Positions 4,698 through 23,305 of a DNA stretch of 64,000 bases are shown in pieces; positions within the stretch are counted from its first letter, which is position 1, and the number at the start of each line of letters is the position of its first letter. Made by a program: the position numbers and the translations under genes. The stretch covers positions 1 to 64,000 of the forward strand of contig NZ_JAQTLH010000004.1 of the NCBI RefSeq assembly GCF_028714975.1, read 5' to 3'. Under the pieces are notes generated by a model that had not been told where the DNA came from, made no database searches, and saw nothing but the letters and a program-made list of their open reading frames with translations. Source of the stretch: Sulfurimonas sp. Its GTDB lineage: Bacteria > Campylobacterota > Campylobacteria > Campylobacterales > Sulfurimonadaceae.

Positions 4698-6038
4698 CTA
4701 CTTTGGACAGTTGTCTGTTCGAACTTGAACATTATGAACTGAACCGTCTTGTCTAACTTCCCAAGTACAAATTGAGTTTCTGTGATAAACACCCTCTAAT
4801 CCCATAATTGCTTTTTCTTGAGTAATTGACGGTTGAACATAACCGGCATCATCTACTGCACGAGATTGCATAAGCAACGGCTTACCTTCATATTTGTACA
4901 TATAAGAGAATCTTGTCCATGATTTAGGAAGAACTAGCCCTTTAAGACTTGCTTTAACATAGTTATCTCCGCCGTCAAACGATATATCTACGGCAGTTAT
5001 AGTTCCGTGTCCGCTCCAAGCAATACCTTCAACCTCAACTAAATCACCTTTTTTAAGGTCTGACCATGGTTTTTCAGGACATGGATTTGTAATAATTGAG
5101 TTTACTTCTAATGGATAGAAGTGTTGGATTGCTTTACCGCTCGGCATTAACGCCGTATATTTAGAAGTCTCTTCTTTACAGTACCAAGGTTCTGTTCCAA
5201 ACTCTAAACGCTTTAAGTATTTAACACATAAGTTAGCTTCCCAGCCCGGTAACATTAAACGAACAGGATATCCTTGTTCCGGTCTAAGTGCTTCACCGTT
5301 TTGTGCCCAAACAATCATAGCATCGTCTAAAACTTTCTCAATAGGAATCGTTCTGCTCATCTCTGAACCGTCTGAACCCTCTGCTAACATCCATTTTGCA
5401 GTCGGCTTAAGACCGATTTCATCAAGGATAGTTTTTAGGCGAACACCAGTCCACTCAGCATTACTCATCATACCTTTTACGAATTGTAAAGAGTTGAATT
5501 GTGGACCTTTCCATTCAGCAGCACCGTTTGCAGGACACTCTAAGAAAAGAAGTCTACTCTCAGCCGGATATTTTTTCAACTGCTCAAGAGTTAAAACAAT
5601 CGGTTTTTCAACAAGACCGTGAATCATAAGTCTAAACTTATTCGGATCTATATGAGCTACACCGTTATGCGTTCTTGTAAAATGCAGTCCGTTTGGCGTA
5701 ATAATACCTTCAAGTTCATGCAGAGGCGTCATTGAAACCGCAGCATGCATATCCCCCGCAGATGAAAGAAGAGCCGAAGTTCTTCTTACGACATTATGCT
5801 CATATGCCGATGGTATACCGTACGGATATTTATTAAGCTCATCACCTAATGTTGTCCCCCACTCCGTATGGTGAATTATGTTTTCATCATCAGCTAACAA
5901 CTTTGCAGGTGCTAAAATATTAGCCGCCGCAATCGCGCTCACAGAATAAGCAGCAGTTCTTTTGAAGAATTCTCTTCTGCTTGATTGTTCTGCTTTATTT
6001 GTAGTAGTTTCTAAATTATTTTCAGAAATTTTACTCAT
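4698..6038 (-). CDS. soxC: Sulfane dehydrogenase molybdopterin subunit SoxC
   Basis: A 446-residue sulfite-oxidase-family protein. A Tat signal (SRREFFKRTAAYSVSAIAAA, 20-39) marks export of the folded molybdoprotein. The Moco-binding core follows, with the ligand Cys at about residue 168 in LFLECPANG, then the Mo-co dimerisation domain near 300-440 (GDNYVKASLKG, WTRFSY). SoxCD oxidises the sulfane sulfur on SoxY, so thiosulfate can go fully to sulfate. It is the first gene of the minus-strand operon; the 262-base gap upstream is very AT-rich and should hold the promoter. Confidence 0.95.
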   Translation of the reverse strand: MSKISENNLETTTNKAEQSSRREFFKRTAAYSVSAIAAANILAPAKLLADDENIIHHTEWGTTLGDELNKYPYGIPSAYEHNVVRRTSALLSSAGDMHAAVSMTPLHELEGIITPNGLHFTRTHNGVAHIDPNKFRLMIHGLVEKPIVLTLEQLKKYPAESRLLFLECPANGAAEWKGPQFNSLQFVKGMMSNAEWTGVRLKTILDEIGLKPTAKWMLAEGSDGSEMSRTIPIEKVLDDAMIVWAQNGEALRPEQGYPVRLMLPGWEANLCVKYLKRLEFGTEPWYCKEETSKYTALMPSGKAIQHFYPLEVNSIITNPCPEKPWSDLKKGDLVEVEGIAWSGHGTITAVDISFDGGDNYVKASLKGLVLPKSWTRFSYMYKYEGKPLLMQSRAVDDAGYVQPSITQEKAIMGLEGVYHRNSICTWEVRQDGSVHNVQVRTDNCPK

Positions 6039-6300
6039 TAATCATCTACCTCCTTCTCTTTAATCTTGTAGATTTTATGATATGCACAATTACATTTTAT
6101 GCAAGATATAAAATGCAAGACGGGAAGATTATATATGAAAATAAATTAAATTGTCAAGGAATTTTAGTAAAAATGTAATAATTTTCTCACATTTTTATAA
6201 TTATTCACACTTCTCTTCTTTTTTGGTAATAAATTTCTCACAAAGTCTACTAAAAAAATATGCTAGAATTTCATACTAATACAAAACAAGGTCTTTTTTT

Positions 6301-6741
6301 ATGCCAAACAAAAAAGTCGGACAAATTTTAAAACTTTTTATCTCTACTGCCCAAAGTTCGCAAAGGGTCGAGAAACCAGTTATCTTGCTTGATGAGTTAG
6401 GTGTAATCGGTGATAAGTTTTATAATAGAGATAACGCTCGTTCTATATTATTGACATCAACGGATAGTTATGATTTAATCAAAAACTATGATATAGATAT
6501 GCCGAGCGGATATTTAGGCGAAAATCTTTTAATGGATTACAACCCTTACTCTTTAGCTATAGGAACGCAGCTTAAAATCGGAGATACAATACTGGAGATA
6601 AGCCAAAACTGCACGATTTGCAATCATCTATCCGTAATAGATAAACGGATACCGAAACTTTTAAAAGATGATAGAGGAATTTTTGCAAAAGCTATACAAG
6701 GCGGAGAGATAAGTATCGGAGACACTATTTATATACTTTAG
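6301..6741 (+). CDS. MOSC-domain protein
   Basis: A 146-residue stand-alone MOSC domain with the family pattern: GYLGENLL (75-82), LAIGTQLKIGDTILEIS, and the conserved Cys pair in NCTICNHL. MOSC domains bind molybdenum-pterin or pyridoxal ligands and move sulfur or handle N-hydroxylated substrates (YiiM, YuaD, MocoS C-terminal domain). It is divergent from soxC, the only molybdoenzyme gene in the window, which makes a cofactor-related role plausible but unproven. An AAGG sits about 10 bases before the start. Confidence 0.8.
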   Translation: MPNKKVGQILKLFISTAQSSQRVEKPVILLDELGVIGDKFYNRDNARSILLTSTDSYDLIKNYDIDMPSGYLGENLLMDYNPYSLAIGTQLKIGDTILEISQNCTICNHLSVIDKRIPKLLKDDRGIFAKAIQGGEISIGDTIYIL

Positions 6742-6798
6742 ATAACTGAGACCTTAATACTCTTAGGCATTTATGCCGGAAGCTTTAGGGGGTTGCAA

Positions 6799-6861
6799 GG
6801 GACAAATTTGTCCCTGCCGGTAAAATGGGCTCGCGTGCCCTTTGGGTATTGCTCATTTTAC
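6799..6861. repeat. Tandem palindrome and inverted repeat, copy E of the dispersed family
   Basis: A perfect 16-base palindrome GGGACAAATTTGTCCC (6799-6814) is followed by an inverted repeat with arms GTAAAATG (6820-6827) and CATTTTAC. Inside lies CTCGCGTGCCCTTTGGGTAT (6830-6849), which recurs at 26743-26762 with one change and, reverse-complemented and exact, at 37641-37660. The element sits between the convergent MOSC and bioC genes and could also serve as a bidirectional terminator. Confidence 0.6.
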
Positions 6862-6870
6862 TGCTTAACA

Positions 6871-7551
6871 TCAATAGATAAAGACTACCTCAAACTCCAG
6901 ATAGTTCAAAGGGTACTCATTTAGCAGCTTTTTGCTCTCTTTGTAACTTAATATTTTTCTTGCCCCGCTAACGCCGCTTCTCTTTATATACTTAAACATC
7001 TCTCTTGTCGATTCAAACTCAAGTTTATAGTTTACTACTTCAAACTCTGCGTCGAAATATTTTTTTTGAAGTTCATTTACCTCATCGGCACTTTTTAAAA
7101 TCGACTCTATCGACGCCGTTTTATTTATGGTTTTAAAAGTATTTGCAGTAAAAATTGCCAAAGCAAGAGGCGCATTAAACTGCTTAATTTTGCCAAATAC
7201 CCTATCTAAATCATCCGCCCACTGCAAAGCCGATGCGGAAAAAATAAAATCGTATCTATATGTAAGCAGCTTTTCAAATAACTTATCATCGTTAAAGTCC
7301 CCGTATATAAGCTCAATCTTTGATGATTTTGGATGCAAATCTAACATACCCTTGGCAAAATCAACACCGCTAAAGTGTTCATACTCCCAATTAATCGCTC
7401 TGCAAATGCTTCCGCTTCCGCATCCCAAATCCAAAATTCGTTTCGGTTTTTCATTAATATGGCTAAGAAGTTTTTCTACCACCCTGTTTTGTATAATATT
7501 GTAACTATTATAATGCGGTGCATATTTTGAAAACTCGGAGCTTATTTTCAT
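6871..7551 (-). CDS. bioC: BioC-like malonyl-ACP O-methyltransferase
   Basis: A 226-residue class I SAM-dependent methyltransferase. The SAM motif ILDLGCGSGSICRA is near residue 39 and FSASALQWADDLD near 104 matches the BioC acceptor-side motif. BioC methylates malonyl-ACP to start pimelate synthesis for biotin. The N-terminal FSKYAPHYNSYNIIQ resembles the BioC 'Ya..Yd..a.vQ' opening. Its start overlaps the end of the metal permease gene by 4 bases, so it is co-transcribed with the znu genes, with no evident functional link. Confidence 0.8.
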   Translation of the reverse strand: MKISSEFSKYAPHYNSYNIIQNRVVEKLLSHINEKPKRILDLGCGSGSICRAINWEYEHFSGVDFAKGMLDLHPKSSKIELIYGDFNDDKLFEKLLTYRYDFIFSASALQWADDLDRVFGKIKQFNAPLALAIFTANTFKTINKTASIESILKSADEVNELQKKYFDAEFEVVNYKLEFESTREMFKYIKRSGVSGARKILSYKESKKLLNEYPLNYLEFEVVFIY

Positions 7552-8345
7552 TTTCTATTTATGATTAGAGATATTATAAAGATTACAAGTACGCACAAAA
7601 CTATCGTAGCGCCTGAAGGGAGCGAGAAATAAAAAGAGAGCGTCATACCTGATACGACGCTAAAGAGTCCAAAAATCAGAGAAATAATTACAGTTTTTAA
7701 AAAACCGACTCTAAACTGTAACGCTGAGACGCTCGGGATTATCATAAGCGCACCTATGAGCAAACTTCCCACTACTCTGATGGAAAGTGCAATGATAACG
7801 GCTACTACGCTAACAAGCAGAAAATTTAAAAAATTTACTTTAATTCCGCTTGTTTGTGCCACCTCTTCATCATAGGCGATAAAATATAACTCTTTTGAGA
7901 AAAATAGCAGTGCGCCCAAAGAGAGGGTTCCAAAAATAGCAATAGTTACGACATCCTCGCTGCTTACGGATAAAATAGAGCCAAAAAGATAGGAAAAAAG
8001 AGAGTTGTTAAAGGCACCGCCGATGGAGACGATAATAACGGCAGCTGCTAATGAACCCGAGAGCAAAATAGCAAGTACGGCATCGCTGTAGAGCGAAAAT
8101 GCACTTCTTAGATACTCTATAAGCCAAGCGGATATAATGGCAAACAAAACAGCCATCCATAAAGGATTAAAGCCACCCACAAGACCGACGGCAACACCGA
8201 CAAGTGCTGAATGGGCAAGTGTTTCGCTAATCATCGAGTAGCGTTTTAAAACTACAAAAGTTCCGCTCACGGAGGCAAGAACGGCAATAATAATACCCGC
8301 TACAAAAGCTCTTTGCATAAAATCGTATTCAAACATTTCTAACAT
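7548..8345 (-). CDS. znuB: Zinc/manganese ABC transporter permease (ZnuB-like)
   Basis: A 265-residue polytopic protein of the ABC-3 permease family with about eight hydrophobic helices and the segment SETLAHSALVGVAVG typical of ZnuB/MntB. The ATG at 8345 lies one base after the stop of the ATPase gene and gives a family-like N-terminus (MLEMFEYDFMQRAFV). An upstream in-frame Met at 8384 would overlap the ATPase gene and is rejected. Metal specificity cannot be read from the permease alone. Confidence 0.88.
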   Translation of the reverse strand: MLEMFEYDFMQRAFVAGIIIAVLASVSGTFVVLKRYSMISETLAHSALVGVAVGLVGGFNPLWMAVLFAIISAWLIEYLRSAFSLYSDAVLAILLSGSLAAAVIIVSIGGAFNNSLFSYLFGSILSVSSEDVVTIAIFGTLSLGALLFFSKELYFIAYDEEVAQTSGIKVNFLNFLLVSVVAVIIALSIRVVGSLLIGALMIIPSVSALQFRVGFLKTVIISLIFGLFSVVSGMTLSFYFSLPSGATIVLCVLVIFIISLIINRK

Positions 8346-8346
8346 A

Positions 8347-9111
8347 TTAATGCTCGTGCTTATGATTGTGAAGCAGATGGGCATCTATGCCATAAAGTTC
8401 GCTCATCTCTTGACAGCTTAAAAGTTGTTTGGGGTTATTGCATATAATAGCTTTTTCGTTTATGGTAAAAAGCCTTGCTATATCATCTGCAATTACGCCT
8501 ATATCGTGCGTAATAAAAACTATAGTTATCTTATCTTCTTTATTTAATTTTCTAAGAAGCGCATAGAAATTTTTTTGCGAAGCCGCATCTACTCCGGTAT
8601 TTGGCTCATCCAGTATCAATATTTCAGGTTTTGAAGCAAGGGCACGGGCAATCATAGCTCTTTGTCTCTGCCCACCGGAGAGAGTACCTATCATCTTGTC
8701 TTTTAAATCAAGTATATCCATCTTTGCCATTGCATCGTAAACAAGCTTTTTATCGGTTTCGCTAAAAGAGCTGAAAAATCCTCTCTGTGAAGTTCTGCCC
8801 ATTTTTACTATATCCAAAACAGTTGCCGGAAAAGAGCTGTCTACATGCGAAGCGCGTTGCGGAACATAGCCGATTTTATGCCACTCTTTAAAATTTGAGA
8901 GCTTTTTTCCGTATATTTTCACTTCTCCGGTTGTCGGTTTTTCAAGTCCCAAGAGCATACGGATAAGCGTCGTTTTACCGCCTCCGTTTGGACCGATTAT
9001 AGCAATATACTCCGAACGAAAAATCTCCAAAGAGATATTTGATAAAATTCTCTGACCTTTAACGATAAAAGTTAAGTTTTTGATATCGAATATCGGAAGA
9101 TTAAATTTCAT
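8347..9111 (-). CDS. znuC: Zinc/manganese ABC transporter ATPase (ZnuC-like)
   Basis: A 254-residue ABC ATPase with Walker A GPNGGGKTT near residue 41, signature LSGGQRQR, Walker B EILILDEPNTGVDA and the switch His in FITHDIG. The C-terminus is His-rich (HLLHNHKHEH), as often seen in zinc and nickel systems. It powers uptake together with the permease and the binding protein in the same operon. The start overlaps the end of znuA by 4 bases. Confidence 0.9.
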   Translation of the reverse strand: MKFNLPIFDIKNLTFIVKGQRILSNISLEIFRSEYIAIIGPNGGGKTTLIRMLLGLEKPTTGEVKIYGKKLSNFKEWHKIGYVPQRASHVDSSFPATVLDIVKMGRTSQRGFFSSFSETDKKLVYDAMAKMDILDLKDKMIGTLSGGQRQRAMIARALASKPEILILDEPNTGVDAASQKNFYALLRKLNKEDKITIVFITHDIGVIADDIARLFTINEKAIICNNPKQLLSCQEMSELYGIDAHLLHNHKHEH

Positions 9112-10034
9112 TTACACTCAAGTGCTTGTGATATCTTTTGCAAATTTTTTCTCATAATATCTTCGTAGCTTAATCCCGACTTTGCCTCATCCGCCGTGAT
9201 GTTGCCGAGAGGTTGAAGAATATCAACCTTTACGTTTGCCTCTTTTGCTATACTCTTTATCGCTTTATCGCTTGCAAAACTCTCAAAAAATATAGTAGCT
9301 ACTTTATGCTCTTTTACATGTGTTATAAGTTTTATCATATTTTTTGGACTAGGTTCGGCTTCAGGCGATAATCCACTAAGGGCTTCGACATGAAAACCGT
9401 ATCTGTTGGCAAGATATGAAAAAGCGTCGTGATTTACTATAATCGTATCGAGCTTACAAGCAGAGAGCTTCTTTTTATAATCTGCATCGAGATTTTTTAA
9501 CATATTTATATAATTATCTCTATTTTTTATATATAAACTTTTATTTTGCGGAAACAGTTGAGCAAGTTCCTCTGTGATACGCTCTGTGGCTTTTATCATA
9601 TTTTGCAAATCCTGCCAATAGTGCGGATCAACGCTATTATGTTTATGGTGAACATCTCCGTGGTGTTCATGTTCACCGTTTGGCTTTTTAAGCTCAACAT
9701 ATTTGCTTATGTCGATGGCTCTATTTTTAAATTTAAATCCGCCTATCCACGGTTCTAAGCCTGCCCCGCTGTAGAGAACCAAATCGCTTTTTGATATTTT
9801 TATCATCTCTTTGGGTGATGGCTCATAACTATGAACATCTACTCCAAAAGGAAGAATCATAAAAACTTCCGCACTCTCGCCTGCAATATTTTTTGAGATA
9901 TCATACAAAGAGAATGTACTGGCTGCGATAGTCGGCTTTTGAGCAATCTCCTTTGCGCTTAATGGAGTAATAAATATTATTAAAGATACAAAAACCGCAA
10001 CTGCAGTCACTAAAATTCTATTTTTTAAATTCAT
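9108..10034 (-). CDS. znuA: Periplasmic zinc/manganese-binding protein (ZnuA-like)
   Basis: A 308-residue cluster A-I (ZinT/TroA type) binding protein. After a signal peptide (VFVSLIIFITPLSA) come the metal ligands: His in DVHSYEP, a His-rich loop EHEHHGDVHHKH, the ligand segment DPHYWQDL, His in VNHDAFSYLA and a C-terminal Asp near GNITADE. The His loop favours zinc over manganese. The start at 10034 is chosen because it opens directly into the signal peptide after GGAAACAGTA; the upstream in-frame Met at 10133 adds unlikely sequence. A Zur/Fur operator was not recognised. Confidence 0.9.
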   Translation of the reverse strand: MNLKNRILVTAVAVFVSLIIFITPLSAKEIAQKPTIAASTFSLYDISKNIAGESAEVFMILPFGVDVHSYEPSPKEMIKISKSDLVLYSGAGLEPWIGGFKFKNRAIDISKYVELKKPNGEHEHHGDVHHKHNSVDPHYWQDLQNMIKATERITEELAQLFPQNKSLYIKNRDNYINMLKNLDADYKKKLSACKLDTIIVNHDAFSYLANRYGFHVEALSGLSPEAEPSPKNMIKLITHVKEHKVATIFFESFASDKAIKSIAKEANVKVDILQPLGNITADEAKSGLSYEDIMRKNLQKISQALECK

Positions 10035-10094
10035 TACTGTTTCCGATATTTTTTTGAAATTATAGCTTATTTTGCAACAATAAGTTTTTTTGGG

Positions 10095-10100
10095 TATAAT
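10095..10100 (+). promoter_or_regulatory. -10 box of the secG-frr-pyrE promoter
   Basis: TTTTTTTGGGTATAATTCGC contains a perfect TATAAT preceded by TGGG, 44 bases before the secG start. The same TTTGGGTATAATCGCG-type sequence recurs at 63970. Campylobacterota sigma-70 promoters typically lack a clear -35 and have T-rich upstream DNA, as here. Confidence 0.6.
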
Positions 10101-10143
10101 TCGCCACTTTTTAAAATAGGGCGAAACCCTCAAGGATATATAA

Positions 10144-11769: not shown

Positions 11770-12867
11770 GTGAAACCGATTGCACTTTTTTTAGCACTTC
11801 TGTTTTTTTGGCAAAATCTAGGCGCATCAGCCGATATACCTGAAGATAACGAGCTAAAAAAGATGATTGGCAGAATGCTTATCGTCGGATTTGACGGTGA
11901 TAGTGTAGATGAGAATAGCAAAATAGTTTCCCAGATACAAAAATATGAACTTGGCGGTGTAATTCTTTTTGACCGTCACTTTCATGACAGAACCAAAACA
12001 AAAAATATCAGCTCGCCGCAACAATTAAGCACTCTTACTTCATCGCTAAAATCTTTTGCAAAAAAACCGCTTATCGTCTCTGTTGATCAAGAGGGCGGAA
12101 GAGTCGCAAGACTTAAACCTGCATACGGATTTGACGCAACGCCCTCAGCTAAAGTTGTCTCTGAGATGGATGAGTATATGACAAAGCATGTATACAACTC
12201 TCTAGCAAAAACACTCAAAAACAGCGGAATAAATTGTGATTTTGCACCCGTCGTTGATTTGGCGATAAACCCACAAAATAGAGTTATCGTCGGACTAAAT
12301 CGCTCTTACGGAACCGACTCCAAAGAGGTTGCAAAATACGCAAAGATATTTATAAACTCCCTTAAAAATGAACATATTTTAAGCGTGGCAAAGCATTTTC
12401 CCGGACACGGTTCATCGCTTGGTGATTCGCATGAAGGTTTTGTGGATATCAGTAAAACTTGGAGCGAGGTAGAACTTGAACCATACAAAGAACTAATCAA
12501 CTCAGGCATGATTTCTATGATAATGACCGCCCATGTTTTTAACTCGCAGTTAGATGAAAAGTACCCCTCTACGCTCTCACACAATGTAAACACAAAACTA
12601 CTTCGGGACAAACTCCATTTTAACGGTGTTATTGTAAGCGATGATTTACAGATGGGGGCGATTTTGAAGCACTACTCGCTAAAAGAGATTGTTTCATTAT
12701 CCATAAACAGCGGGGTTGATATGCTGCTTTTTGGCAATCAGCTTGCAACTCAAGACATTGATGAGCTTGTAGAGCTTATTTTTGCCGAGGTTAAAAGCGG
12801 CGAAATAAGCTACAGACGAATCTTGGAGTCAAACAAAAGAGTAGAACTCTTGCATAAAAGTTTCTAA
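11770..12867 (+). CDS. nagZ: Beta-N-acetylhexosaminidase NagZ-type (GH3), exported
   Basis: A 365-residue GH3 enzyme that removes GlcNAc from GlcNAc-anhydroMurNAc (peptides). Visible: VDQEGGRVARL (105-115), the KHFPGHGSSLGDSH loop (208-221) with the general acid/base His, and the nucleophile Asp in VSDDLQMGAI (about 291). Unlike cytoplasmic E. coli NagZ it begins with a signal peptide (residues 1-21, ALFLALLFFWQNLGASA), so it probably acts outside the cytoplasm. It starts with GTG; a stop lies just upstream in frame, so no longer start exists. It is followed by transporter, anmK, amgK and murU with overlapping ends. Confidence 0.9.
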   Translation: MKPIALFLALLFFWQNLGASADIPEDNELKKMIGRMLIVGFDGDSVDENSKIVSQIQKYELGGVILFDRHFHDRTKTKNISSPQQLSTLTSSLKSFAKKPLIVSVDQEGGRVARLKPAYGFDATPSAKVVSEMDEYMTKHVYNSLAKTLKNSGINCDFAPVVDLAINPQNRVIVGLNRSYGTDSKEVAKYAKIFINSLKNEHILSVAKHFPGHGSSLGDSHEGFVDISKTWSEVELEPYKELINSGMISMIMTAHVFNSQLDEKYPSTLSHNVNTKLLRDKLHFNGVIVSDDLQMGAILKHYSLKEIVSLSINSGVDMLLFGNQLATQDIDELVELIFAEVKSGEISYRRILESNKRVELLHKSF

Positions 12868-14336
12868 TGCAGAGTGCTTTTTCTACCCTTGACTGGCTTG
12901 TGTTTGGTCTCTATTTTTTAGTTTTAACCGTTACTTCGGTGATACTTAGCCGCACGAAAATAGAGTCGTCACGCGATTTCTTCATTACCAAACACCATAT
13001 GTCGACATTTGCCGTTGCCGTTTCCGTAATTGCCACTTCTCAATCCGCCGCTACATTTTTAGGCGCTCCGGAGTACTCATATACTCATAACTTTACATTT
13101 ATAGGCTTTTACTTCTCAGGAGTGCTCGGGGCTTTTTTTGTAGCTTTTGTGCTTGTTCCGAAATTTTACGAGATGAAAGCGGTTACGGTTTATGAGCTTT
13201 TAGAACTAAGATACGGGGAAAGCGCAAAAAAACAAGCAGGAGTTATGTTTTTACTAGGAAGAGTCTTAGCAAGCGGCGCAAGACTCTACATCGGCGCGCT
13301 TGCAATCTCTATGATTCTTTTTAACGACATAATATTTGCGCATGTAGCTATATCTATTTTCGTTTTAATGGCAGGTTCTGTCGCCTACTCATATTTCGGC
13401 GGTATCCGCTCCATCATCTTAAGCGATATTATTCAAGCTATTACCTACATTACTGCGGCGTTAGCAGTACTTATTTTTCTCTACTACTCGCTTGAAGATG
13501 TAGAGATTATAAAAACACTCCAAGAGCATGATAAGCTGGTGTTTATAGACACCTCATTTAGCGGAGAGTTTAGTCTTATAGGGCTTTTTGGCGGATGGCT
13601 TTTGCTAAATATCGCGGCTTACGGGCTTGACCAAGACCTGACTCAAAGAGTTCTTTGCTGTAAAAACAAAAGAGAAGCGACAAAGTCGCTCTTTATCTCG
13701 ACGCTTCTAACGGTTCCTATCGTTATGATTTTTTTAACAATCGGTGCACTTTTATATGTTTTTTACCTTCAAAGCAGTGTCGTGCAAAATTTTCAGGGCG
13801 AAAAAATAACCATCTTTATGTACTACATTTTAAATGAGATGCCGGAGGGCTTAAGAGGCTTGGTTACGGTTGGAGCGGTTGCAACGGCACTCTCAAGCAC
13901 AACCTCTGTTTTAGGTGCTATGGCATCGGTTGCGGTTGAAGATTTATACAGACCGTGGAAGATGAAAAGGGGCAAAGTAGCTGAAAAACATTTTATAAAA
14001 GCATCAAGATTTGCGGTACTTTTTTTCGCACTTGCTCTCTCTTTGATGGCGATAGGAAGTTACTTTTGGCAACGATACAGCAACCTTTCACTCATTAGTT
14101 TCGCACTCGGAGTTATGGCATTTGCCTATACAGGGCTTTTGGGTGTATATTTTTCGGCAATATTTACGACTCGTGGAAACCAAACTACCGTTCTTTTAGC
14201 ACTTATTGGCGGATTTATAACAGTTTTAGCACTTCAACCATATACTTTCGGAATTAATTTAGGTTTTTCATGGCAGATAGTTATCGGAACTGCCGTAGCG
14301 TTTTTAATTACTCAAAGCGGAGCAAAGAATGGATGA
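12867..14336 (+). CDS. Sodium:solute symporter (SSS family), candidate muropeptide-sugar importer
   Basis: A 489-residue polytopic protein of the SSS family with about 13 hydrophobic helices; SQSAATFLGAPEYSYT and TALSSTTSVLGAMASVAVED match the sodium-site regions in TM1 and TM8. The substrate is not readable from sequence. Its ATG overlaps the nagZ stop (TAATG) and its end overlaps anmK by 8 bases, so it is embedded in the recycling operon. No AmpG or PTS gene is in the window. The inference is uptake of anhydroMurNAc or GlcNAc-anhydroMurNAc released by the exported NagZ. Confidence 0.85.
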   Translation: MQSAFSTLDWLVFGLYFLVLTVTSVILSRTKIESSRDFFITKHHMSTFAVAVSVIATSQSAATFLGAPEYSYTHNFTFIGFYFSGVLGAFFVAFVLVPKFYEMKAVTVYELLELRYGESAKKQAGVMFLLGRVLASGARLYIGALAISMILFNDIIFAHVAISIFVLMAGSVAYSYFGGIRSIILSDIIQAITYITAALAVLIFLYYSLEDVEIIKTLQEHDKLVFIDTSFSGEFSLIGLFGGWLLLNIAAYGLDQDLTQRVLCCKNKREATKSLFISTLLTVPIVMIFLTIGALLYVFYLQSSVVQNFQGEKITIFMYYILNEMPEGLRGLVTVGAVATALSSTTSVLGAMASVAVEDLYRPWKMKRGKVAEKHFIKASRFAVLFFALALSLMAIGSYFWQRYSNLSLISFALGVMAFAYTGLLGVYFSAIFTTRGNQTTVLLALIGGFITVLALQPYTFGINLGFSWQIVIGTAVAFLITQSGAKNG

Positions 14337-15435
14337 ATTTTACATCGGTGTAATGTCGGGAACAAGCCTTGACGGTATCGATATAGCTTTTTGCGAAATC
14401 AAACCGCATAGTTTTGAGCTGCTTTACTCTGCCGTATATCCTTTTGATAAAGAGTTAAAGGTTGACATCCTAAGTGCTATAAATGCTCCGATAACTCTAA
14501 AGACCATAGGTGAACTTGATACCCGTTTGGGCAAAATGTACGCTGATGCGATAGAGAGTTTTATATATGAGAAAAAGATAGATAAAAATAAAATAAGAGC
14601 TATCGGCCTACACGGTCAAACACTTTGGCACGAGCCAAACAGTAAGTACCCTTTTTCTATGCAGTTAGGCAATCCTAGTGTTGTAACGGCTCAAACAGGT
14701 GTTAGAGTTGTCAGTGATTTTAGACAAAAAGATATAGCGCTCGGGGGTCAAGGTGCTCCTTTTGCACCTGCTTTTCATAACTACCTATTTTCAAAACTTG
14801 AAGGCAATATCGCGGTGCTAAATATCGGCGGAATGGCAAATCTAACTATTCTAGGCGATGAACTTATAGGCTACGACACAGGCTGCGGCAATGTTCTTAT
14901 AGACTACTGGGCTTCTCAAAATAACAATACTGCTTATGACGAAGACGGAAAATGGGCTAAATCGGGAACCGTAAATGCCGAGTTGCTTAAACTTATGCTA
15001 AAAGAGCCTTACTTTTCAAAAGAAGCTCCAAAAAGTACTGGTCGTGAGCTTTTTAACGGAAATTGGCTTAAAAAACAGCTTGAACTTTTCTCACTAAAAA
15101 GAGGAGGAAATTCTCATATAAAAAACAGAGATGTTCAAGCAACTCTTTTAGAGTTAAGCGTAAAGAGCATCGCAAATGAGGTCAAAAAAACCTCAACCGA
15201 TTTGTTGATTGTATGTGGCGGCGGCGTTAAGAACTCTTACCTTATGGAGCGACTCAAAGATGAACTAAGCGGAATAGAGGTTGTTTCAAGCGATGAGTGT
15301 GGAGTTAGCAGTGAATTTATGGAGGCTATGGCTTTTGCATGGCTTGCTTATGAGAGAGTGCACAAAAGATGTGTTAAACTATCCTCCGTTACGGGAGCGT
15401 CAAAAGATTCTATTTTAGGTGCTATATATGAGTAA
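14329..15435 (+). CDS. anmK: Anhydro-N-acetylmuramic acid kinase
   Basis: A 368-residue kinase of standard AnmK length, with N-terminal GVMSGTSLDGIDIA (7-20), GLHGQTLWHEP near 102, DFRQKDIALGGQGAPFAPAF and LNIGGMANLT. AnmK opens the 1,6-anhydro ring of anhMurNAc and phosphorylates it to MurNAc-6-phosphate in the cytoplasm. It overlaps both neighbours by 8 bases, indicating one transcript. In the Pseudomonas-type pathway a phosphatase (MupP) must follow before AmgK; no clear mupP is in this operon. Confidence 0.95.
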   Translation: MDEFYIGVMSGTSLDGIDIAFCEIKPHSFELLYSAVYPFDKELKVDILSAINAPITLKTIGELDTRLGKMYADAIESFIYEKKIDKNKIRAIGLHGQTLWHEPNSKYPFSMQLGNPSVVTAQTGVRVVSDFRQKDIALGGQGAPFAPAFHNYLFSKLEGNIAVLNIGGMANLTILGDELIGYDTGCGNVLIDYWASQNNNTAYDEDGKWAKSGTVNAELLKLMLKEPYFSKEAPKSTGRELFNGNWLKKQLELFSLKRGGNSHIKNRDVQATLLELSVKSIANEVKKTSTDLLIVCGGGVKNSYLMERLKDELSGIEVVSSDECGVSSEFMEAMAFAWLAYERVHKRCVKLSSVTGASKDSILGAIYE

Positions 15436-16366
15436 AATAAAAGAGTGGCTACAAACAACTTCTTACAAAAATTATACGATTGAGACTGCATTAGCAGATG
15501 CAAGTTTTAGAAAATATTACAGACTCAGAGACGGGGACAAAACAGCCCTTTTGATGGACTCTTCTTTGGAGTTAAACTCTTTAAAATCATTTTTAGATGT
15601 AACGATAAGACTAAAAAATGCGGATGTAAGCGTCCCTAAGATTTTTGAACAAAACATAGAAAACGGGTACATAATTTTAGAAGATTTCGGAACTACCCAC
15701 TATTTGGATCTCTTAAGTGAAAATAACTTCAAAGCGTTTTACACGAAAGCCATCAATTCTATTTTAAAAATGCAAAAAGCGGATACGAAAGATTTGCCTC
15801 TATACGATAAAGAGTTTTTACATGCAGAGATGCAATTGATGCAGGATTGGTATATAGAGAAACTTCTTCGCGCAAAGCTAAACGAATCGCAAAAAGAGCT
15901 TATCGCAACTACGCTTGAGACTATTTCTGCCGTAGTTTTAGAGCAGCCTCAAGATGTTTTTGTGCATCGCGATTTTCACTCAAGAAATATCATGCTAAAA
16001 AATGATAAAAAAATCGGCATCATTGATTATCAAGACGCGATGAGCGGTGCCATAACCTACGACTTGGTCTCTTTACTCAAAGATTGTTATGTCGCTTACG
16101 ATAGAAAAGAGATTAAAACTCTTGCATTGGAGTTTCGCGATAAAAAAGGGATTAAAGTAGATAATGAAACATTTATCAAATGGTTTGATTTTATGGGATT
16201 GCAAAGACATATAAAAGTGCTAGGCATATTTTCCCGCCTATCTCTTCGTGACGGCAAAAACGGCTATCTAAAAGATATCCCGCTGACACTCAAGTATGTT
16301 ATAGATACGGCAAGCAGATACAGCCAAACCAAAGAGTTGGCAAATTTATTGAGCAGTATAAAATGA
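15428..16366 (+). CDS. amgK: N-acetylmuramate/N-acetylglucosamine kinase (AmgK-like)
   Basis: A 312-residue aminoglycoside-phosphotransferase-fold kinase. The catalytic loop VHRDFHSRNIM (HxDxxxxN) lies near 178 and the Mg-binding IIDYQDAM follows. AmgK phosphorylates the anomeric carbon of MurNAc to give MurNAc-1-phosphate. Function is assigned mainly from the adjacent murU, anmK and nagZ; alone the fold could be any small-molecule kinase. The ATG at 15428 overlaps anmK by 8 bases and is preferred to the GTG at 15419. The stop overlaps the murU ATG. Confidence 0.88.
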   Translation: MSKIKEWLQTTSYKNYTIETALADASFRKYYRLRDGDKTALLMDSSLELNSLKSFLDVTIRLKNADVSVPKIFEQNIENGYIILEDFGTTHYLDLLSENNFKAFYTKAINSILKMQKADTKDLPLYDKEFLHAEMQLMQDWYIEKLLRAKLNESQKELIATTLETISAVVLEQPQDVFVHRDFHSRNIMLKNDKKIGIIDYQDAMSGAITYDLVSLLKDCYVAYDRKEIKTLALEFRDKKGIKVDNETFIKWFDFMGLQRHIKVLGIFSRLSLRDGKNGYLKDIPLTLKYVIDTASRYSQTKELANLLSSIK

Positions 16367-17025
16367 AAGCAATGATTTTGGCGGCCGGACGAGGCGAGAG
16401 AATGCGTCCGCTGACTGACAAAATACCCAAACCCCTGCTTGAGGTGCATAAAAAACCACTTATTGTTTGGCATATAGAAAAGCTTGCTTCTCTTGGTTTT
16501 AGAGAAATTGTTATCAATATCGATCATCTTGGAGATATGATACAAAAAAAATTGGGCAACGGCAGAGAGTGGGGAGTAAACTTAATCTACTCGGATGAGC
16601 AAAAAAGCGGAGCCTTAGAGAGTGCAGGCGGAATCATAAAAGCGCTTGGGATACTTGGAGATGAGAATTTTTTAGTAGTAAACGGCGATATTTGGTGCGA
16701 CTATGAGTTTGAAAATAACTTTGATTTGAAAGATGATTTGGCGCATCTGATTTTAGTTCCAAATCCACAACACAACCCGCATGGAGATTTTGCTCTGCAT
16801 AACGGCAGAGTTATAAACGATGCAGAACAAAAGTTTACCTTCTCAGGCATAGGATACTACAGCATAAAATTTTTTGATAACTTAGAGTGCAAAAAAACTC
16901 CACTTGCACCTCTGCTAAGAGAAGCGGCACAAAAGGGCAAAGTCGGAGGTTCTTTATATAATGGAAGATGGCATGACATAGGCACGCCGCAGAGGCTTGC
17001 CGAAGCAAACGCTATTTTTGTATAA
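16363..17025 (+). CDS. murU: N-acetylmuramate-1-phosphate uridylyltransferase (MurU-like)
   Basis: A 220-residue nucleotidyltransferase beginning MKAMILAAGRGERMRPLTDK, the nucleotide-binding signature, with VNGDIWCDY as metal-binding Asp region near 108 and GRWHDIGTPQRL at the C-terminus. MurU makes UDP-MurNAc directly from MurNAc-1-phosphate, bypassing the fosfomycin-sensitive MurA step. It is coupled to amgK by an ATGA overlap and is the last gene of the operon. A small opposite-strand gene overlaps its last 14 bases. Confidence 0.9.
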   Translation: MKAMILAAGRGERMRPLTDKIPKPLLEVHKKPLIVWHIEKLASLGFREIVINIDHLGDMIQKKLGNGREWGVNLIYSDEQKSGALESAGGIIKALGILGDENFLVVNGDIWCDYEFENNFDLKDDLAHLILVPNPQHNPHGDFALHNGRVINDAEQKFTFSGIGYYSIKFFDNLECKKTPLAPLLREAAQKGKVGGSLYNGRWHDIGTPQRLAEANAIFV

Positions 17026-17158: not shown

Positions 17159-17271
17159 ATAGACTCCTTTGTTTAATTTTTTGAAATTATAACAAACATA
17201 TCTATCAATTAATATGCATTTGATTTTAAAATGCTATACTAAAAATATAAAAATAGCGGGGTGAATTGATA

Positions 17272-18258
17272 ATGATTAAAATATTTTTTGTGCTTTTGTT
17301 AAGCACTCTGCTTTTTGCAAAACATAATAGCTGTGAATTTCAAAACCAAAATTATACGGAAGTTTGTAACAAAGTAGTAGAAAACGGTGTGTCGTATGAG
17401 TATGCAAATAAATTTTTATTATCTTTTTTTAAAACACAAAAATTTGACGAAATAAGTTATGAGTACCTGCAGCCAAAATATATACAAGTTCATAAAAAAA
17501 ATGAGAAAAAAGCGAACAATGTACTGGTTAAATATATACCCGAGATGGTTGAACATCTAAAAAAATATAGTGAAGTTTATGATTATGCCGAGGAAAAATA
17601 TGGCGTAAACCGTGAGATAGTAGCTGCTATTTTGCTAAAAGAGACAAGGCTGGGAAAAATCGTGCCAAAACATGATGCGTTTATTGTTTTTAACACTTTA
17701 GTCGTGCGAACAAAACCAAACACGCAAAGAGAAAAGTGGCTCTTAAATATGGGCAAAACCAATATGGTATCTATCATCACACATTGTTATAAAAGAGGTG
17801 TAGAACCTGATGAGTGCAATCTGCCAAGCTCATACGCCGGAGCCGTAGGAATACCGCAGTTTATGCCCGATAGTTTTATATATAGCGAAGGATATAAAAC
17901 AGAAATTGCAGATTTGACAAAGATGGAAGATGCAATCTTGTCTGCTAGTAAATTTCTCAACAAAAAAGCCGAATTTACAGAGCTTCTTGACTGGAATAAA
18001 ATACCCGACATCGTAGATATCGAGTCAAAATGGTATGACTATGAGTTTGAAAATGAAGATGCTTCATTTGTTCATGCCAAAAACAAAGGTACCGATAAAG
18101 AGAGCAAATGCTTTACATGCGATAAAGAGGAGCTTAATTACTTAAGAGAGTACACAAAAAAAGTCTTGCGCTACAACAACTCCTCAAACTATGCAGTTGG
18201 CGTAATGCGTTTGGCTTATGAAGCGCAAAAAGGGCTTGTCCGTACAGAAGGAAAATAA
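17272..18258 (+). CDS. Lytic murein transglycosylase, MltB-like (GH103)
   Basis: A 328-residue exported protein with a signal peptide (FFVLLLSTLLFA). The catalytic Glu is in LLKETRLGK (near residue 120) and the MltB-type motif SSYAGAVGIPQFMPDSF follows near 185. It cleaves peptidoglycan with formation of 1,6-anhydroMurNAc ends, the substrate of the recycling operon just upstream. The C-terminal part is shorter than in E. coli MltB and has a CFTC pair (about 280). The ATG at 17272 follows GCGGGG; the TTG at 17266 is less likely. Confidence 0.85.
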   Translation: MIKIFFVLLLSTLLFAKHNSCEFQNQNYTEVCNKVVENGVSYEYANKFLLSFFKTQKFDEISYEYLQPKYIQVHKKNEKKANNVLVKYIPEMVEHLKKYSEVYDYAEEKYGVNREIVAAILLKETRLGKIVPKHDAFIVFNTLVVRTKPNTQREKWLLNMGKTNMVSIITHCYKRGVEPDECNLPSSYAGAVGIPQFMPDSFIYSEGYKTEIADLTKMEDAILSASKFLNKKAEFTELLDWNKIPDIVDIESKWYDYEFENEDASFVHAKNKGTDKESKCFTCDKEELNYLREYTKKVLRYNNSSNYAVGVMRLAYEAQKGLVRTEGK

Positions 18259-18758: not shown

Positions 18759-19595
18759 TTAGAAAATAGTAGCCTTTAGAACATGCGACTCGTTGGGTTT
18801 TATGACTCTTGCATCATCAAATGCATTTGCCGACTCTATACAGAGCATATTTTGGTAAGCATCATCTCTCATCGCACTCATTCTTTTACACTTCTCTATC
18901 CACGGATTCCATACGACAACGGACAATGAGCCATCGTTTTTGATGTGAATCTCTCTGTTTTTATCCCCTAAAACTATCTCGCTATCAACTTCTTGGTAAA
19001 CTCTATCAACCTCTTGATTGAAGGCTATATCGCCGTTTTGCACTTCGTTTTTCCATGTCAGCGCATCCAAATAGGGCTTTTTATCTAACCCTTTAATAGA
19101 TACCTGTGAGATATCCGAGATAGCAAAATAAGTATGAAGCGCTTGTGAAATTTCAAAAGATTTGTCATCTAAGTTTGTAGTTTTTAACTCCATCGTCAAT
19201 CTATCTGAAATGGTAATTTTTAGCTCCAAAAGAAACTTATAGTACCACATTTTAAGCGTCTCTTCATTGTTAGAGAATCTAAAAGTAAGAGTTGTTGTTC
19301 TTTCGTCTACCTCATCGCCAAACACAAACTCCCACATAGAAATTCTTGCAAAACCGTGTTGAGGCAGACTTTTATCTTCATTAAACCCAAACCACGGCCA
19401 ACACACTGGAACACCGCCGCGGATTGCCTTGCCGTATTCGAAATCACTTACTTCACTAAGCCAAAGAAGAGGCTCTTCACCCATTCTTGCATAGTGAAAC
19501 AGATGTGCTCCCTGCAAAGCGACTTTTGCTTCTGCAACAGAATTTTTTATCTCTATATATGCAAAACCGTTTACTAATGTTTTATGAACAACCAT
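18759..19595 (-). CDS. D-hexose-6-phosphate mutarotase (YeaD-like)
   Basis: A 278-residue aldose-1-epimerase-fold protein with the YeaD-type sequence RGGVPVCWPWFG near 61 and PQHGFAR near 77 (catalytic His region), and ALHTYFAIS near 147. It interconverts alpha and beta anomers of hexose-6-phosphates such as glucose-6-phosphate. Its start overlaps the end of the sugar transporter gene by 22 bases, so it is the last gene of the four-gene minus operon beginning with the Kef-type antiporter. Confidence 0.88.
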   Translation of the reverse strand: MVVHKTLVNGFAYIEIKNSVAEAKVALQGAHLFHYARMGEEPLLWLSEVSDFEYGKAIRGGVPVCWPWFGFNEDKSLPQHGFARISMWEFVFGDEVDERTTTLTFRFSNNEETLKMWYYKFLLELKITISDRLTMELKTTNLDDKSFEISQALHTYFAISDISQVSIKGLDKKPYLDALTWKNEVQNGDIAFNQEVDRVYQEVDSEIVLGDKNREIHIKNDGSLSVVVWNPWIEKCKRMSAMRDDAYQNMLCIESANAFDDARVIKPNESHVLKATIF

Positions 19596-20860
19596 TCACT
19601 TCCCCAAGATGAGATTTTATGTCCTTTGAGTGCGTAAAAAAGTATAAAAGTGTAGCAAACTATGCCGATTAGGTAGGTTGATTGCATATCACCGCTCACT
19701 TGAGCTATTTTGCCGAAGAGTAGCGGAAGTATCGCACCTCCTGCTATCGCCATGATTAACAGTGCGCTTCCCTTAGCCGTATGTCTTCCCAACCCCTCTA
19801 ACGCCAAAGGCCAAATGGTAGGCCAGACAAGGGCATTTGCAAAACCCAAAAGTGCGACAAATGTTATAGTGTCAGGCAGAGTTCTCACTCCGCTCCAACC
19901 CCATAAAATCTCGCTGATTGTACTGCCTTGCGTTGATGAAGATGCAACACCGAGCAAAAACATCACTCCAAAGACACTAGAGAGCAGAAGCGCTTTTTCT
20001 TGTGAGAGATATTTGGGTATGAAAAGAACACCGACAAGATAGCCTAAAACCATAAAAATCATAGTAAAAGAGGTTAGGGCAGTATAGTTTTCTACGCTTA
20101 AATGTTGCCCGTAAAGCCCGATAGTATCTCCCGCGATTACCTCAATGCCGACATAAAAGAAGAGTGCAATCGCCCCCAAAACTACTCGTGGAAACTCAAA
20201 TATATTCTTCTCTTCTTCTTGCGTCTCTTTTGGAAACTCAAGTTCCGGAAGCGAAGAGAATTTCACAAGTGCTATCAAGCCACTCAAAACTACCGCCATT
20301 ATGATATACGGGGTTATAAGTTTTGAAGCCAGAGCCTCTTTTGCTTCGCTTGATAAATCCTCCATTGAACCGATGCCTGAGAGTATAAACGCGCTAAAAA
20401 GAAGAGGAACGATAACTCCGGCACTTTTATTTATAAGCCCCATTATACTTATACGCATAGCCGCACTCTTGATATCCCCGATGCAGACTATGTATGGATT
20501 TGAAGCAGTTTGCAGTATCGTAAGCCCTGTTCCCAGCGTAAAGAGTGCAGTTAAAAAAAGTATAAAACTTGCATTCATAGCAGCCGGTATAAAAAGAAGA
20601 CTACCGACAACCATGACTGCCAAGCCCAAAGCCATACCGTTTTTATAGCCTGTTTTCTCAAGCAGATAAGCCATCGGAAGAGCCATAACTGTATAGGCGA
20701 TGTAAAAAGCAAAAGTGACAAAGAGAGCTTGAAACTCGTTAAGGTCGCAAATGACTTTTAAAAAGGGGATGAGTGAGCCGTTGAGCCATGTAACAAACCC
20801 AAAAATGAAAAATAGAACTCCTATGATTGCCATAGGGACAAGCGTGGATTTACTTTGCAC
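19574..20860 (-). CDS. Sugar:proton symporter, FucP/GluP/NagP (FHS) family
   Basis: A 428-residue major facilitator with 12 hydrophobic helices. FFIFGFVTWLNGSLIPFLK (about 17-35) and LQTASNPYIV (around 115-124) are typical of the FHS subfamily, which includes L-fucose, glucose/galactose and N-acetylglucosamine (NagP) importers. Substrate cannot be decided from sequence. It overlaps the HAD gene upstream by 11 bases and the mutarotase downstream by 22. A sugar importer is notable in an organism otherwise looking lithoautotrophic; GlcNAc from the nearby recycling genes is one candidate. Confidence 0.85.
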   Translation of the reverse strand: MQSKSTLVPMAIIGVLFFIFGFVTWLNGSLIPFLKVICDLNEFQALFVTFAFYIAYTVMALPMAYLLEKTGYKNGMALGLAVMVVGSLLFIPAAMNASFILFLTALFTLGTGLTILQTASNPYIVCIGDIKSAAMRISIMGLINKSAGVIVPLLFSAFILSGIGSMEDLSSEAKEALASKLITPYIIMAVVLSGLIALVKFSSLPELEFPKETQEEEKNIFEFPRVVLGAIALFFYVGIEVIAGDTIGLYGQHLSVENYTALTSFTMIFMVLGYLVGVLFIPKYLSQEKALLLSSVFGVMFLLGVASSSTQGSTISEILWGWSGVRTLPDTITFVALLGFANALVWPTIWPLALEGLGRHTAKGSALLIMAIAGGAILPLLFGKIAQVSGDMQSTYLIGIVCYTFILFYALKGHKISSWGSEWLFIKH

Positions 20861-21680
20861 TTTTTAGACTTTTTAGATAGTGTGCAACTGCATCTTCATC
20901 GTTTGTATGAGGCAGAACGATATTTGCCAGTTTTTTTACACCCTCTTGCGCATTTGCAACCGCAACGGAAGTTCCCGCTAACTCAAACATACCGACATCG
21001 TTAAAATTATCTCCAAAAACAGTGAGTTTAGAGAGGTCAAAACCGATATATTCGCTCACACTCTTTATGCCGTGAGATTTATCTGCGTCTTTATGCAAAA
21101 TTGTCAAAAAATAGCAGCCGACATAAGCTTCGGGTGCTAAGATATATTTCAAACTATCTCCAAAAATCTTCTCTATTTGAAGTGCAAGTTCTCGCAACAA
21201 AACCTCATCTCCAAAATAGACGATTTTAAAATTATCATCCATCGCACGAAGATTGCTCTGCTGATTGTGGTGATCGTCATTTTTATAATTTTTAAGCACC
21301 TCTTTTTGATGTGCATTTAAAACGGTAGAGTAAGAGAAAATTTCGCGCAGAGTGCCATCTGCCAAAGAGAGGATAAAAGGGTAGATACCCAGCTTCGCAC
21401 CCTCGTCTATAATAGCATCCGATACCGCTTTGTTTATAAACTTTGTGTCTATTATCTTCTTATCCATAGTTGCTATTAAAGCCCCGTCAAGCAGTATCAT
21501 CGGAGCATTTATTTGAACATTCTCTATAAACTGGAGTGTTTTTTTGTATGTTCTAGCCGTTGCAACACTCACGATAGAATTATTTGCCGTCTCATTCCAA
21601 ATCTCTCTGGTAAATCCGCTTATAGAGAGATCGGTTCGTAAAAACGTATGATCCAGATCCGTTATAAAGATACTCTTCAT
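20850..21680 (-). CDS. HAD-superfamily (Cof-type) hydrolase
   Basis: A 276-residue HAD phosphatase: nucleophile motif FITDLDHTFLRTD (5-17) and motif III-IV VFGDNFNDVGMF near 215, with a type IIB cap between. It resembles the Cof or sugar-phosphate phosphatase branch. The ATG at 21680 follows GGAGGAAAAAAGCA and overlaps the antiporter stop as ATGA; the ORF extension to 21704 is rejected. A sugar-phosphate substrate is suggested by the transporter and mutarotase downstream, but is not shown. Confidence 0.85.
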   Translation of the reverse strand: MKSIFITDLDHTFLRTDLSISGFTREIWNETANNSIVSVATARTYKKTLQFIENVQINAPMILLDGALIATMDKKIIDTKFINKAVSDAIIDEGAKLGIYPFILSLADGTLREIFSYSTVLNAHQKEVLKNYKNDDHHNQQSNLRAMDDNFKIVYFGDEVLLRELALQIEKIFGDSLKYILAPEAYVGCYFLTILHKDADKSHGIKSVSEYIGFDLSKLTVFGDNFNDVGMFELAGTSVAVANAQEGVKKLANIVLPHTNDEDAVAHYLKSLKSAK

Positions 21681-23305
21681 TGCTTTTTTCCTCCGATTTG
21701 GCATGTCATCATTCGCTCAACCAATATACGCCCTATTTCCACTTTATCATCTACAATCGATGTTATCGGTAAATCTTGCAGATTCTCTTTATCCTCAAGT
21801 GTCGCTACTTTGACGACAAGGTTTACATCTTTTGTATGTTTTAGTACAGCTTCGCAGATAGCTCTTTTTTTCTCGATGTTATCAAGCGTTACAATTACCG
21901 CAACAGAGTTCTTGGCATGCAGAGCGTCTAATAAAGATAGCTTTGACATATCACCAAGATACGCCTCTTTACCCTCTTTTAATGCTTCTTGAACTTGTTT
22001 TGGGTTATTGTCTATGATAACATAATGCGCATTAATGAGATCAAGATTTTTTGCAACAAATTTTCCCGTGACACTATACCCACATATTATGACATGATCT
22101 TTGCGTGAAACAAAAGCAGAAGTATCCAATCCTAAGTATTGATAATTACTAATATAACTTACAAACTTATTTATTTTAGAGATAAAAAACGGTGTAATCA
22201 CCATAGAAAAGATAACTACCAAAACAAAAAGAGACTCAAGCTCTTTTTCTAAAAGCCCTCCTACACTTGCTACGGCAAAAATAACAAATGAAAATTCTCC
22301 TACTTGCGAGAGCGCAAGAGCCGTCTTAAGTGAACGGGTATGTGACGAAGTGATACGCATTATCACATATGTTATAGCTGTTTTTGAAATAAAGATAAGA
22401 ATAAAAGTCGTAATGATTATATCGATATGTTTTATGAAAAAGACAATATCTATCTTCATACCTACGACGATAAAAAATGTTCCAAGCAAAATATCTTTAA
22501 ACGGGGCTATATCCGATTCGACTTTATGGTGGTACTTTGTCTCCGCTATAATCATTCCTGCTACAAAAGCTCCAAGGGAGTAGGTAAAACCCATAAATGA
22601 AGCCAAAAGTCCTGCACTTACTACAATAAAAAGGACAGAACTCATAAAAAGCTCATCTACTTCACTTCTAGCAGAAAAATGTAAAAGCCAAGTCATAACT
22701 CTTTTTCCGACAATAAAAAGTAGCCCTAAAACCAAAACGGCACTTATAAATGTATCTATCAATACCGTAGATATGGATTGTGTGCCTTTGCTTGCTAAAA
22801 ATCCTAAAAAGATTAAAATAGGTATAACAGCAATATCTTGAAATATCAAAATTCCCATTGCTCTTTGCCCATAAGGGTTATTGATTTCTTTTGAGTTTTT
22901 TAAATAACTAAGCACAACAGCGGTCGATGAGAGCGCGATAGCAAGTGCAACTATAATAGCAGGAACGGTCGGAAGTCCAAAATAATAATAGGATACTAAA
23001 AAAATAAAGATAGCAGTGAGGCTTACTTGTAAAAAACCGTTAAAAAAGATCTCCGCCTTCATACTGTTCATTTTTGATAAAGAGACTTCAAGACCTATCG
23101 TAAACATTAAAAAAACGACCCCAAAATCTCCTATATGCCCAAGCATAGCAGAACTGCCATACTCTCGCAAATCAAACGCATAAACTATTATGGTACCGGT
23201 TAATATATAGCCTATAATCTGTGAAACACCTAGCCGTTTTAAAAGTAAGTTCAGTACCGTTGAGAGACCCAAAGCCACTACTATATATAAAAGTACAAAA
23301 TCCAT
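21677..23305 (-). CDS. CPA2-type cation:proton antiporter with RCK domain (KefB/YbaL-like)
   Basis: A 542-residue protein. Residues 1-380 are a 12-13 helix Na/H-exchanger domain (QIIGYILTGTIIV, AIALSSTAVVLSYL, FQDIAVIPILIF). Residues 400-515 form a TrkA-N/RCK nucleotide-binding domain (HVIICGYSVTGKFVAKNL). It probably expels potassium or sodium under NAD(H) or stress control. It is the first gene of the minus operon continuing with the HAD, sugar transporter and mutarotase genes. Confidence 0.9.
   Translation of the reverse strand: MDFVLLYIVVALGLSTVLNLLLKRLGVSQIIGYILTGTIIVYAFDLREYGSSAMLGHIGDFGVVFLMFTIGLEVSLSKMNSMKAEIFFNGFLQVSLTAIFIFLVSYYYFGLPTVPAIIVALAIALSSTAVVLSYLKNSKEINNPYGQRAMGILIFQDIAVIPILIFLGFLASKGTQSISTVLIDTFISAVLVLGLLFIVGKRVMTWLLHFSARSEVDELFMSSVLFIVVSAGLLASFMGFTYSLGAFVAGMIIAETKYHHKVESDIAPFKDILLGTFFIVVGMKIDIVFFIKHIDIIITTFILIFISKTAITYVIMRITSSHTRSLKTALALSQVGEFSFVIFAVASVGGLLEKELESLFVLVVIFSMVITPFFISKINKFVSYISNYQYLGLDTSAFVSRKDHVIICGYSVTGKFVAKNLDLINAHYVIIDNNPKQVQEALKEGKEAYLGDMSKLSLLDALHAKNSVAVIVTLDNIEKKRAICEAVLKHTKDVNLVVKVATLEDKENLQDLPITSIVDDKVEIGRILVERMMTCQIGGKKQ

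Follow-up and report, generated by a model that had tools for sequence, protein, structure and literature searches.

A candidate AmpG-independent route of peptidoglycan recycling in Sulfurimonas with an SSS-family symporter as putative importer of anhydro-MurNAc

Introduction

How does anhydro-N-acetylmuramic acid (anhydro-MurNAc) reach its kinase AnmK inside the cell of a Gram-negative bacterium in which no AmpG permease is found? This question is raised by an operon within a stretch of 64,000 nucleotides (the window) of a Sulfurimonas-type member of the Campylobacterota, the genome of which comprises 2.06 Mb and is 99.4% complete. The operon consists of five genes on the plus strand in the order nagZ-SSS-anmK-amgK-murU, which overlap by 1, 8, 17 and 4 nt, respectively. 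An initial annotation had recognised these five overlapping genes and had proposed that the SSS-family transporter imports anhydro-MurNAc rather than the disaccharide type of substrate handled by AmpG. Their coordinates and families, assigned by Pfam and NCBIfam profiles, are borne out by the present analysis, with the AmgK-like protein scoring below its cut-off. We consider it probable that the operon belongs to an AmpG-independent route of peptidoglycan recycling in which the symporter would import anhydro-MurNAc, a reading that is based on sequence comparison.

Gene content and proposed route

The first gene, nagZ (11770..12867, GTG start), encodes a GH3 beta-N-acetylglucosaminidase (PF00933, E 3e-65) with an N-terminal signal peptide, MKPIALFLALLFFWQNLGASA, which was read directly from the sequence and is encoded by 11770..11832, the end being approximate. 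It is followed by the gene of the symporter (12867..14336; PF00474, E 3e-24), the proposed anhydro-MurNAc importer, and by anmK (14329..15435; PF03702, E 4e-134; NF007139, 464 bits at a cut-off of 367), which codes for the anhydro-MurNAc kinase. The product of amgK (15419..16366; NF045759, E 2e-71; PF01636) resembles the anomeric kinase of N-acetylmuramic acid (MurNAc) and N-acetylglucosamine (GlcNAc) and has the APH fold, and murU (16363..17025; NF045761, 301 bits at a cut-off of 250) encodes the MurNAc-alpha-1-phosphate uridylyltransferase. The order nagZ-SSS-anmK-amgK-murU-mltB is kept in the Sulfurimonas-type genus with genes occasionally inserted, and is therefore not due to chance. In several congeners the operon is interrupted by genes that were not identified (L028 3595-7139+; L045 4408-7648; L030 11292), and the operon genes persist around these inserts.

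According to the proposed route, lytic transglycosylases would release GlcNAc-anhydroMurNAc-peptides in the periplasm. A candidate is the exported MltB-like protein encoded at 17266..18258 on the plus strand (PF13406, E 2e-29; TIGR02282 below cut-off), the gene of which comes after murU in most congeners. An exported Amidase_2 enzyme would then strip off the peptide and the exported NagZ the GlcNAc, both outside the cytoplasm and in many relatives by one and the same polypeptide. The free anhydro-MurNAc would be imported by the symporter, probably together with sodium, and converted by AnmK to MurNAc-6-phosphate, by a phosphatase to MurNAc, by AmgK to MurNAc-1-phosphate and finally by MurU to UDP-MurNAc. 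The liberated GlcNAc may come back through a NagP-like carrier.

Whether ampG is located elsewhere in the genome had been left to be checked. AmpG (TIGR00901) was found neither in this genome nor in 48 other Campylobacterota (0/49), and the E. coli control was positive; a divergent carrier could be missed by this search. Likewise, no match to MurQ over the cut-off was obtained in 21 genomes. Short SIS-domain stretches below the cut-off were rejected as MurQ candidates, as their lengths indicate GlmS-like and GmhA-like proteins. With MurU over its cut-off, an AmgK-like kinase below it and MurQ absent over cut-off, the gene set corresponds to the anabolic AmgK-MurU branch of recycling.

Export of NagZ and of the amidase

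The N-terminus of NagZ reads MKPIALFLALLFFWQNLGASADIPED. Among the solved relatives of this protein the exported YbbD/NagZ from B. subtilis (E 7e-41) ranks ahead of the cytoplasmic NagZ of Gram-negative bacteria (E 3e-30). The catalytic motifs are well conserved, KHFPGHG..DSH in 78 of 79 homologues and DDLQM in 77. Signal peptides were recognised by a simple rule instead of a dedicated predictor, requiring a positive n-region, an uncharged hydrophobic core and a cleavage site or lipobox; of 337 cytoplasmic proteins encoded in the same loci and taken as controls, only one passes it. The signal peptide that the initial annotation had described for NagZ is present in the window and is found in nearly all relatives: 70 of 74 N-termini pass the rule, and 72 after two were read by eye. 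Even the NagZ proteins of the Sulfurovaceae, which are not linked to the operon, carry an N-terminal signal in all 16 cases that were read.

Exactly one GH3 enzyme is encoded by 23 of 26 genomes tested and none by the other three, and a second, separate cytoplasmic NagZ was not found in any of these 26 genomes. As each genome with a GH3 enzyme has only this one, anhydro-MurNAc is expected to be set free outside the cytoplasm and would need an importer of its own. The alternative that the symporter takes up the disaccharide GlcNAc-anhydroMurNAc after removal of the peptide, with NagZ acting later or partly inside the cell, fits two congeners in which the amidase is exported and NagZ lacks a signal peptide (G002, locus L040 11412-12440; G015, locus L043 2966-3994). 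In that lineage the carrier may take the disaccharide, which could reflect a switch to disaccharide import. For the group as a whole this alternative is unlikely, as NagZ is exported in nearly all other genomes and in none of the tested genomes is there another GH3 enzyme that could cleave the disaccharide after import.

The second hydrolase is an Amidase_2 enzyme (PF01510 over cut-off), whose zinc-ligand motifs H, GHxEY and DP are present in 76 of 77 open reading frames (ORFs), the remaining one being truncated. Each of the 21 Sulfurimonas-type genomes bearing Amidase_2 has exactly one copy. In 11 of them it forms a C-terminal domain on the NagZ ORF, which then comprises 553-574 aa where complete; the other 10 encode it as a protein of its own, which is about 220-240 aa long and starts with a signal peptide. 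The standalone amidase resembles the fused domain, including the stretch that precedes it. In the genome of the window the amidase gene is located on another contig (C1:196529). All 29 standalone amidases pass the signal-peptide rule. Thus the features of an AmpG permease pathway are not found here, since AmpG is lacking and both NagZ (72/74) and the amidase (29/29) carry signal peptides instead of being cytoplasmic. With both hydrolases acting outside the cytoplasm on the products of transglycosylases, anhydro-MurNAc would form there, and AnmK inside the cell would depend on an importer.

The breakdown enzymes are all exported, in Sulfurovum the amidase frequently as a lipoprotein, so that foreign fragments would be usable as well and the module might mainly scavenge the peptidoglycan of other cells rather than recycle the own wall. 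We regard this as very unlikely, because the genes matched in these loci include none that was recognised as dedicated to uptake across the outer membrane, and because the sugar would be routed by MurU to UDP-MurNAc while the catabolic MurQ branch was not found. In some Sulfurovum loci (L135, L136 and L150, at about 5028-7979) a glutaminase-like gene of about 310 aa is located between the amidase and the symporter.

Co-occurrence of the symporter with AnmK

Across 397 genomes of Campylobacterota we compared the distribution of AnmK with that of the SSS subfamily, the latter scored at E < 1e-200. AnmK is encoded by 47 genomes, all from the Sulfurimonas and Sulfurovum families, and within the Sulfurimonas-type genus by 19 of 25. 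The SSS subfamily is likewise present in 47 genomes. Both proteins are encoded by 46 genomes and neither by 349, and only one genome each has AnmK only or the symporter only. In the latter genome (G024) an insert follows the symporter gene at the end of the contig, so that the AnmK gene may just be missing from the assembly. The association still holds in four genomes (G263, G415, G419 and G293) where the genes are located on different contigs or far apart; linkage alone does not explain the co-occurrence.

The gene neighbourhood was surveyed in 80 symporter loci, the best of 340 relatives obtained with an alignment of the SSS proteins. All but one are named as Campylobacterota, and the counts are not fully independent of those given above, as the loci overlap partly with the genome set. 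The gene upstream of the symporter encodes NagZ or a NagZ-amidase fusion in 62 loci and a standalone amidase in 16 loci of the Sulfurovum type, and no gene was recognised in the remaining two. AnmK is found downstream in 71 of the 80 loci; the nine loci without it mostly break off shortly behind the symporter gene. Near the operon of two genomes (L235 and G331; G314:C1:1704918 and G331:C1:1738178) there is an additional symporter copy, which is short (about 137 aa) and incomplete.

Among the genes seen to track AnmK the symporter alone has a transport fold. Together with the fusion of NagZ to Amidase_2 in about half of the genus and the single GH3 enzyme in 23 of 26 genomes, its co-occurrence with AnmK argues for anhydro-MurNAc as the cargo, as the initial annotation had supposed. 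A symporter for free MurNAc or GlcNAc, with anhydro-MurNAc entering by a route that was not recognised, would have a described counterpart in the MurNAc symporter MurT of Tannerella, which feeds a MurNAc kinase (PMC5790795); moreover, AmgK can use MurNAc directly, and GlcNAc is freed outside by NagZ. The partner which tracks the symporter across the 397 genomes is AnmK, however, and a NagP-like carrier for GlcNAc is encoded nearby, which makes such a substrate improbable.

Fold and conserved sites of the symporter

The symporter clearly belongs to the SSS family (PF00474, 86 bits versus a cut-off of 22.8). Among the solved structures the sialic acid transporter SiaT is closest by sequence (E 2e-44, the next one 2e-32). 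An AlphaFold model from 52 sequences with a mean pLDDT (the confidence score of the prediction) of 85.6 was used, and a model from 16 sequences with a pLDDT of 55 was set aside. The predicted structure has the LeuT-type fold and matches SiaT, NIS and SGLT over the full length. SiaT (5nva/5nv9) is the best match, with a Foldseek E-value of 7e-21 and, in a VIA-align superposition of 457 residues at 2.4 A, a Z-score of 44.3, compared to 39.1 for the next family.

The contacts described for SiaT comprise A56, S342 and S343 (Na2), D182 (Na3), S60, T63, N247, R135, Q82 and Q250 (PMC5931594). Seven of these, A56, S342, S343, D182, S60, T63 and N247, correspond to A56, S343, S344, D187, S60, T63 and N248 of the symporter, which are invariant or nearly so in the 52 sequences. 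The Na2 sodium site is thus retained, with A56, S343 and S344 invariant or conserved in more than 90% of these sequences. The symporter shares with SiaT (5nv9) the closest fold and sequence, the sodium site and several residues of the sugar site; it is nevertheless only 24% identical and not of the SiaT type, as R135 and Q82 align to A135 and F81 and Q250 is not kept either. Two invariant arginines, R132 and R139, are located about one helical turn on either side of the R135 position. The retained sodium site and the partly kept sugar site together with these arginines make a carboxylated, N-acetylated sugar a plausible substrate.

Several observations weigh against the assignment of the symporter and of the route. 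The arginine which in SiaT binds the carboxylate, R135, is aligned to an alanine that is invariant in this subfamily, and the Fisher p-values for the co-occurrence with AnmK ignore shared ancestry. Furthermore, the congeners G002 and G015 have a NagZ without signal peptide, and the AmgK-like kinase reaches 241 bits on NF045759, which is below the equivalog cut-off of 550 bits.

The phosphatase step

The conversion of MurNAc-6-phosphate to MurNAc is the task of MupP, which the initial annotation had noted as missing. No MupP orthologue reaches the cut-off of 359 bits in this genome (best score 80 bits, C6:52844), and to that extent the statement holds; a candidate replacement is, however, encoded only a few kb away. 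This gene (20850..21704, minus strand; PF08282, E 3e-43) codes for a Cof-type HAD phosphatase, which may substitute for MupP as MurNAc-6-phosphate phosphatase. It is present in 47 of 47 genomes with AnmK versus 31 of 350 without, the latter mostly from other families and with lower identity. Within the genus the numbers are 24 of 24 versus 1 of 7, the one being G024, the genome with the symporter only. Its distance to anmK is below 20 kb in 34 of the 47 genomes; in the other 13 the two genes are unlinked. Its copies in four genomes (G254, G250, G291 and G358) contain one in-frame stop each, which may be a sequencing error or mark a pseudogene.

It is quite possible that one of two Gph-like HAD proteins of this genome (C1:52510 or C6:52844) catalyses this step instead, as MupP itself, where known, is a member of the Gph-like HAD_2 proteins (PMC5371407) and C6:52844 obtains its 80 bits on the MupP model. 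We do not prefer these proteins. Their scores are far below the MupP cut-off, C6:52844 scores lower on MupP than on the phosphoglycolate phosphatase model, and it is the Cof-type HAD that tracks AnmK in 47 of 47 genomes, often unlinked. This comparison with the presence of AnmK covers the Cof-type HAD, and specificity relative to the Gph-like HADs does not follow from it.

Neighbouring genes

Between the operon and the Cof-type HAD gene two further genes are encoded on the minus strand. An aldose-1-epimerase-like gene (18759..19595; PF01263, E 9e-43), whose position is unchanged in many congeners, is located next to the gene for the NagP-like carrier of the major facilitator superfamily (MFS; 19574..20860; NF046060, 513 bits at a cut-off of 625), a candidate GlcNAc importer that is conserved close to the operon in many congeners. 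Upstream, a divergent znuABC-like operon for uptake of the zinc/manganese type by an ATP-binding cassette (ABC) system (7548-10133) adjoins the module in many congeners. Zinc is required by Amidase_2 enzymes. Scans for promoters and terminators gave about as many sites as shuffled sequences and were not used.

Comparison with known recycling systems

The chemistry from transglycosylase, amidase and NagZ over AnmK, AmgK and MurU to UDP-MurNAc is the one known from E. coli and Pseudomonas, with AmgK-MurU in the latter. In these bacteria the intact anhydromuropeptide enters through AmpG, and AmpD and NagZ act on it in the cytoplasm; in the present case AmpG is lacking and the two hydrolases are exported. 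The NagZ-AmiE-MurP system of Bacillus subtilis resembles the proposed route in that exported NagZ and amidase act first and a monosaccharide importer follows; however, Bacillus uses MurP of the phosphotransferase system (PTS), in contrast to an SSS symporter with AnmK in a Gram-negative that handles the products of transglycosylases (PMC6987092). In Agrobacterium YejBEF-YepA stands in for the lacking AmpG, but this ABC system takes up muropeptides intact, and AmpD and NagZ are cytoplasmic (PMC9790009).

Precedents exist for single elements of the route. The initial annotation regarded an SSS carrier for this sugar as undescribed. This is true for the anhydro sugar, the assignment of which is new, but not for MurNAc: MurT from Tannerella forsythia was reported as a MurNAc importer of the sodium symporter superfamily that is paired with a kinase, although the same paper also assigns it to the MFS (PMC5790795). 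This likeness is taken from the published description. Moreover, in Tannerella MurNAc goes to MurK and MurQ, no AnmK is predicted and transport of anhydro-MurNAc was not shown (PMC7670621). An exported NagZ without AmpG is known from Rhodothermus marinus, where RmNag3 carries a signal peptide, AnmK is present, AmpG and AmpD are lacking and a periplasmic route was proposed by the authors; there the additional domain is of the beta-lactamase type, and no importer was identified (PMC6987092). In a literature search of partial coverage we found no report on this operon in Campylobacterota, nor, among the 10 best of 284 matching papers, on AnmK or peptidoglycan recycling in Sulfurimonas or Sulfurovum.

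A wider picture, which we put forward only tentatively, would be that two families of chemolithotrophs disassemble muropeptides completely outside the cytoplasm, often by a fusion enzyme, import anhydro-MurNAc by a sodium-coupled carrier that constitutes a new SSS subfamily, and use a Cof-type HAD in place of MupP. If the proposed route is true, it would be a candidate for how Gram-negatives with exported NagZ and without AmpG recover anhydro-MurNAc, a point left open for Rhodothermus (PMC6987092). It would also add a transporter for an anhydro-amino sugar to the SSS family, and the functions assigned to two enzymes, the NagZ-amidase fusion and the Cof-type phosphatase, are open to testing. 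For the hosts, sulfur-oxidising bacteria which are abundant at vents and redoxclines, it would explain how AnmK is supplied without AmpG.

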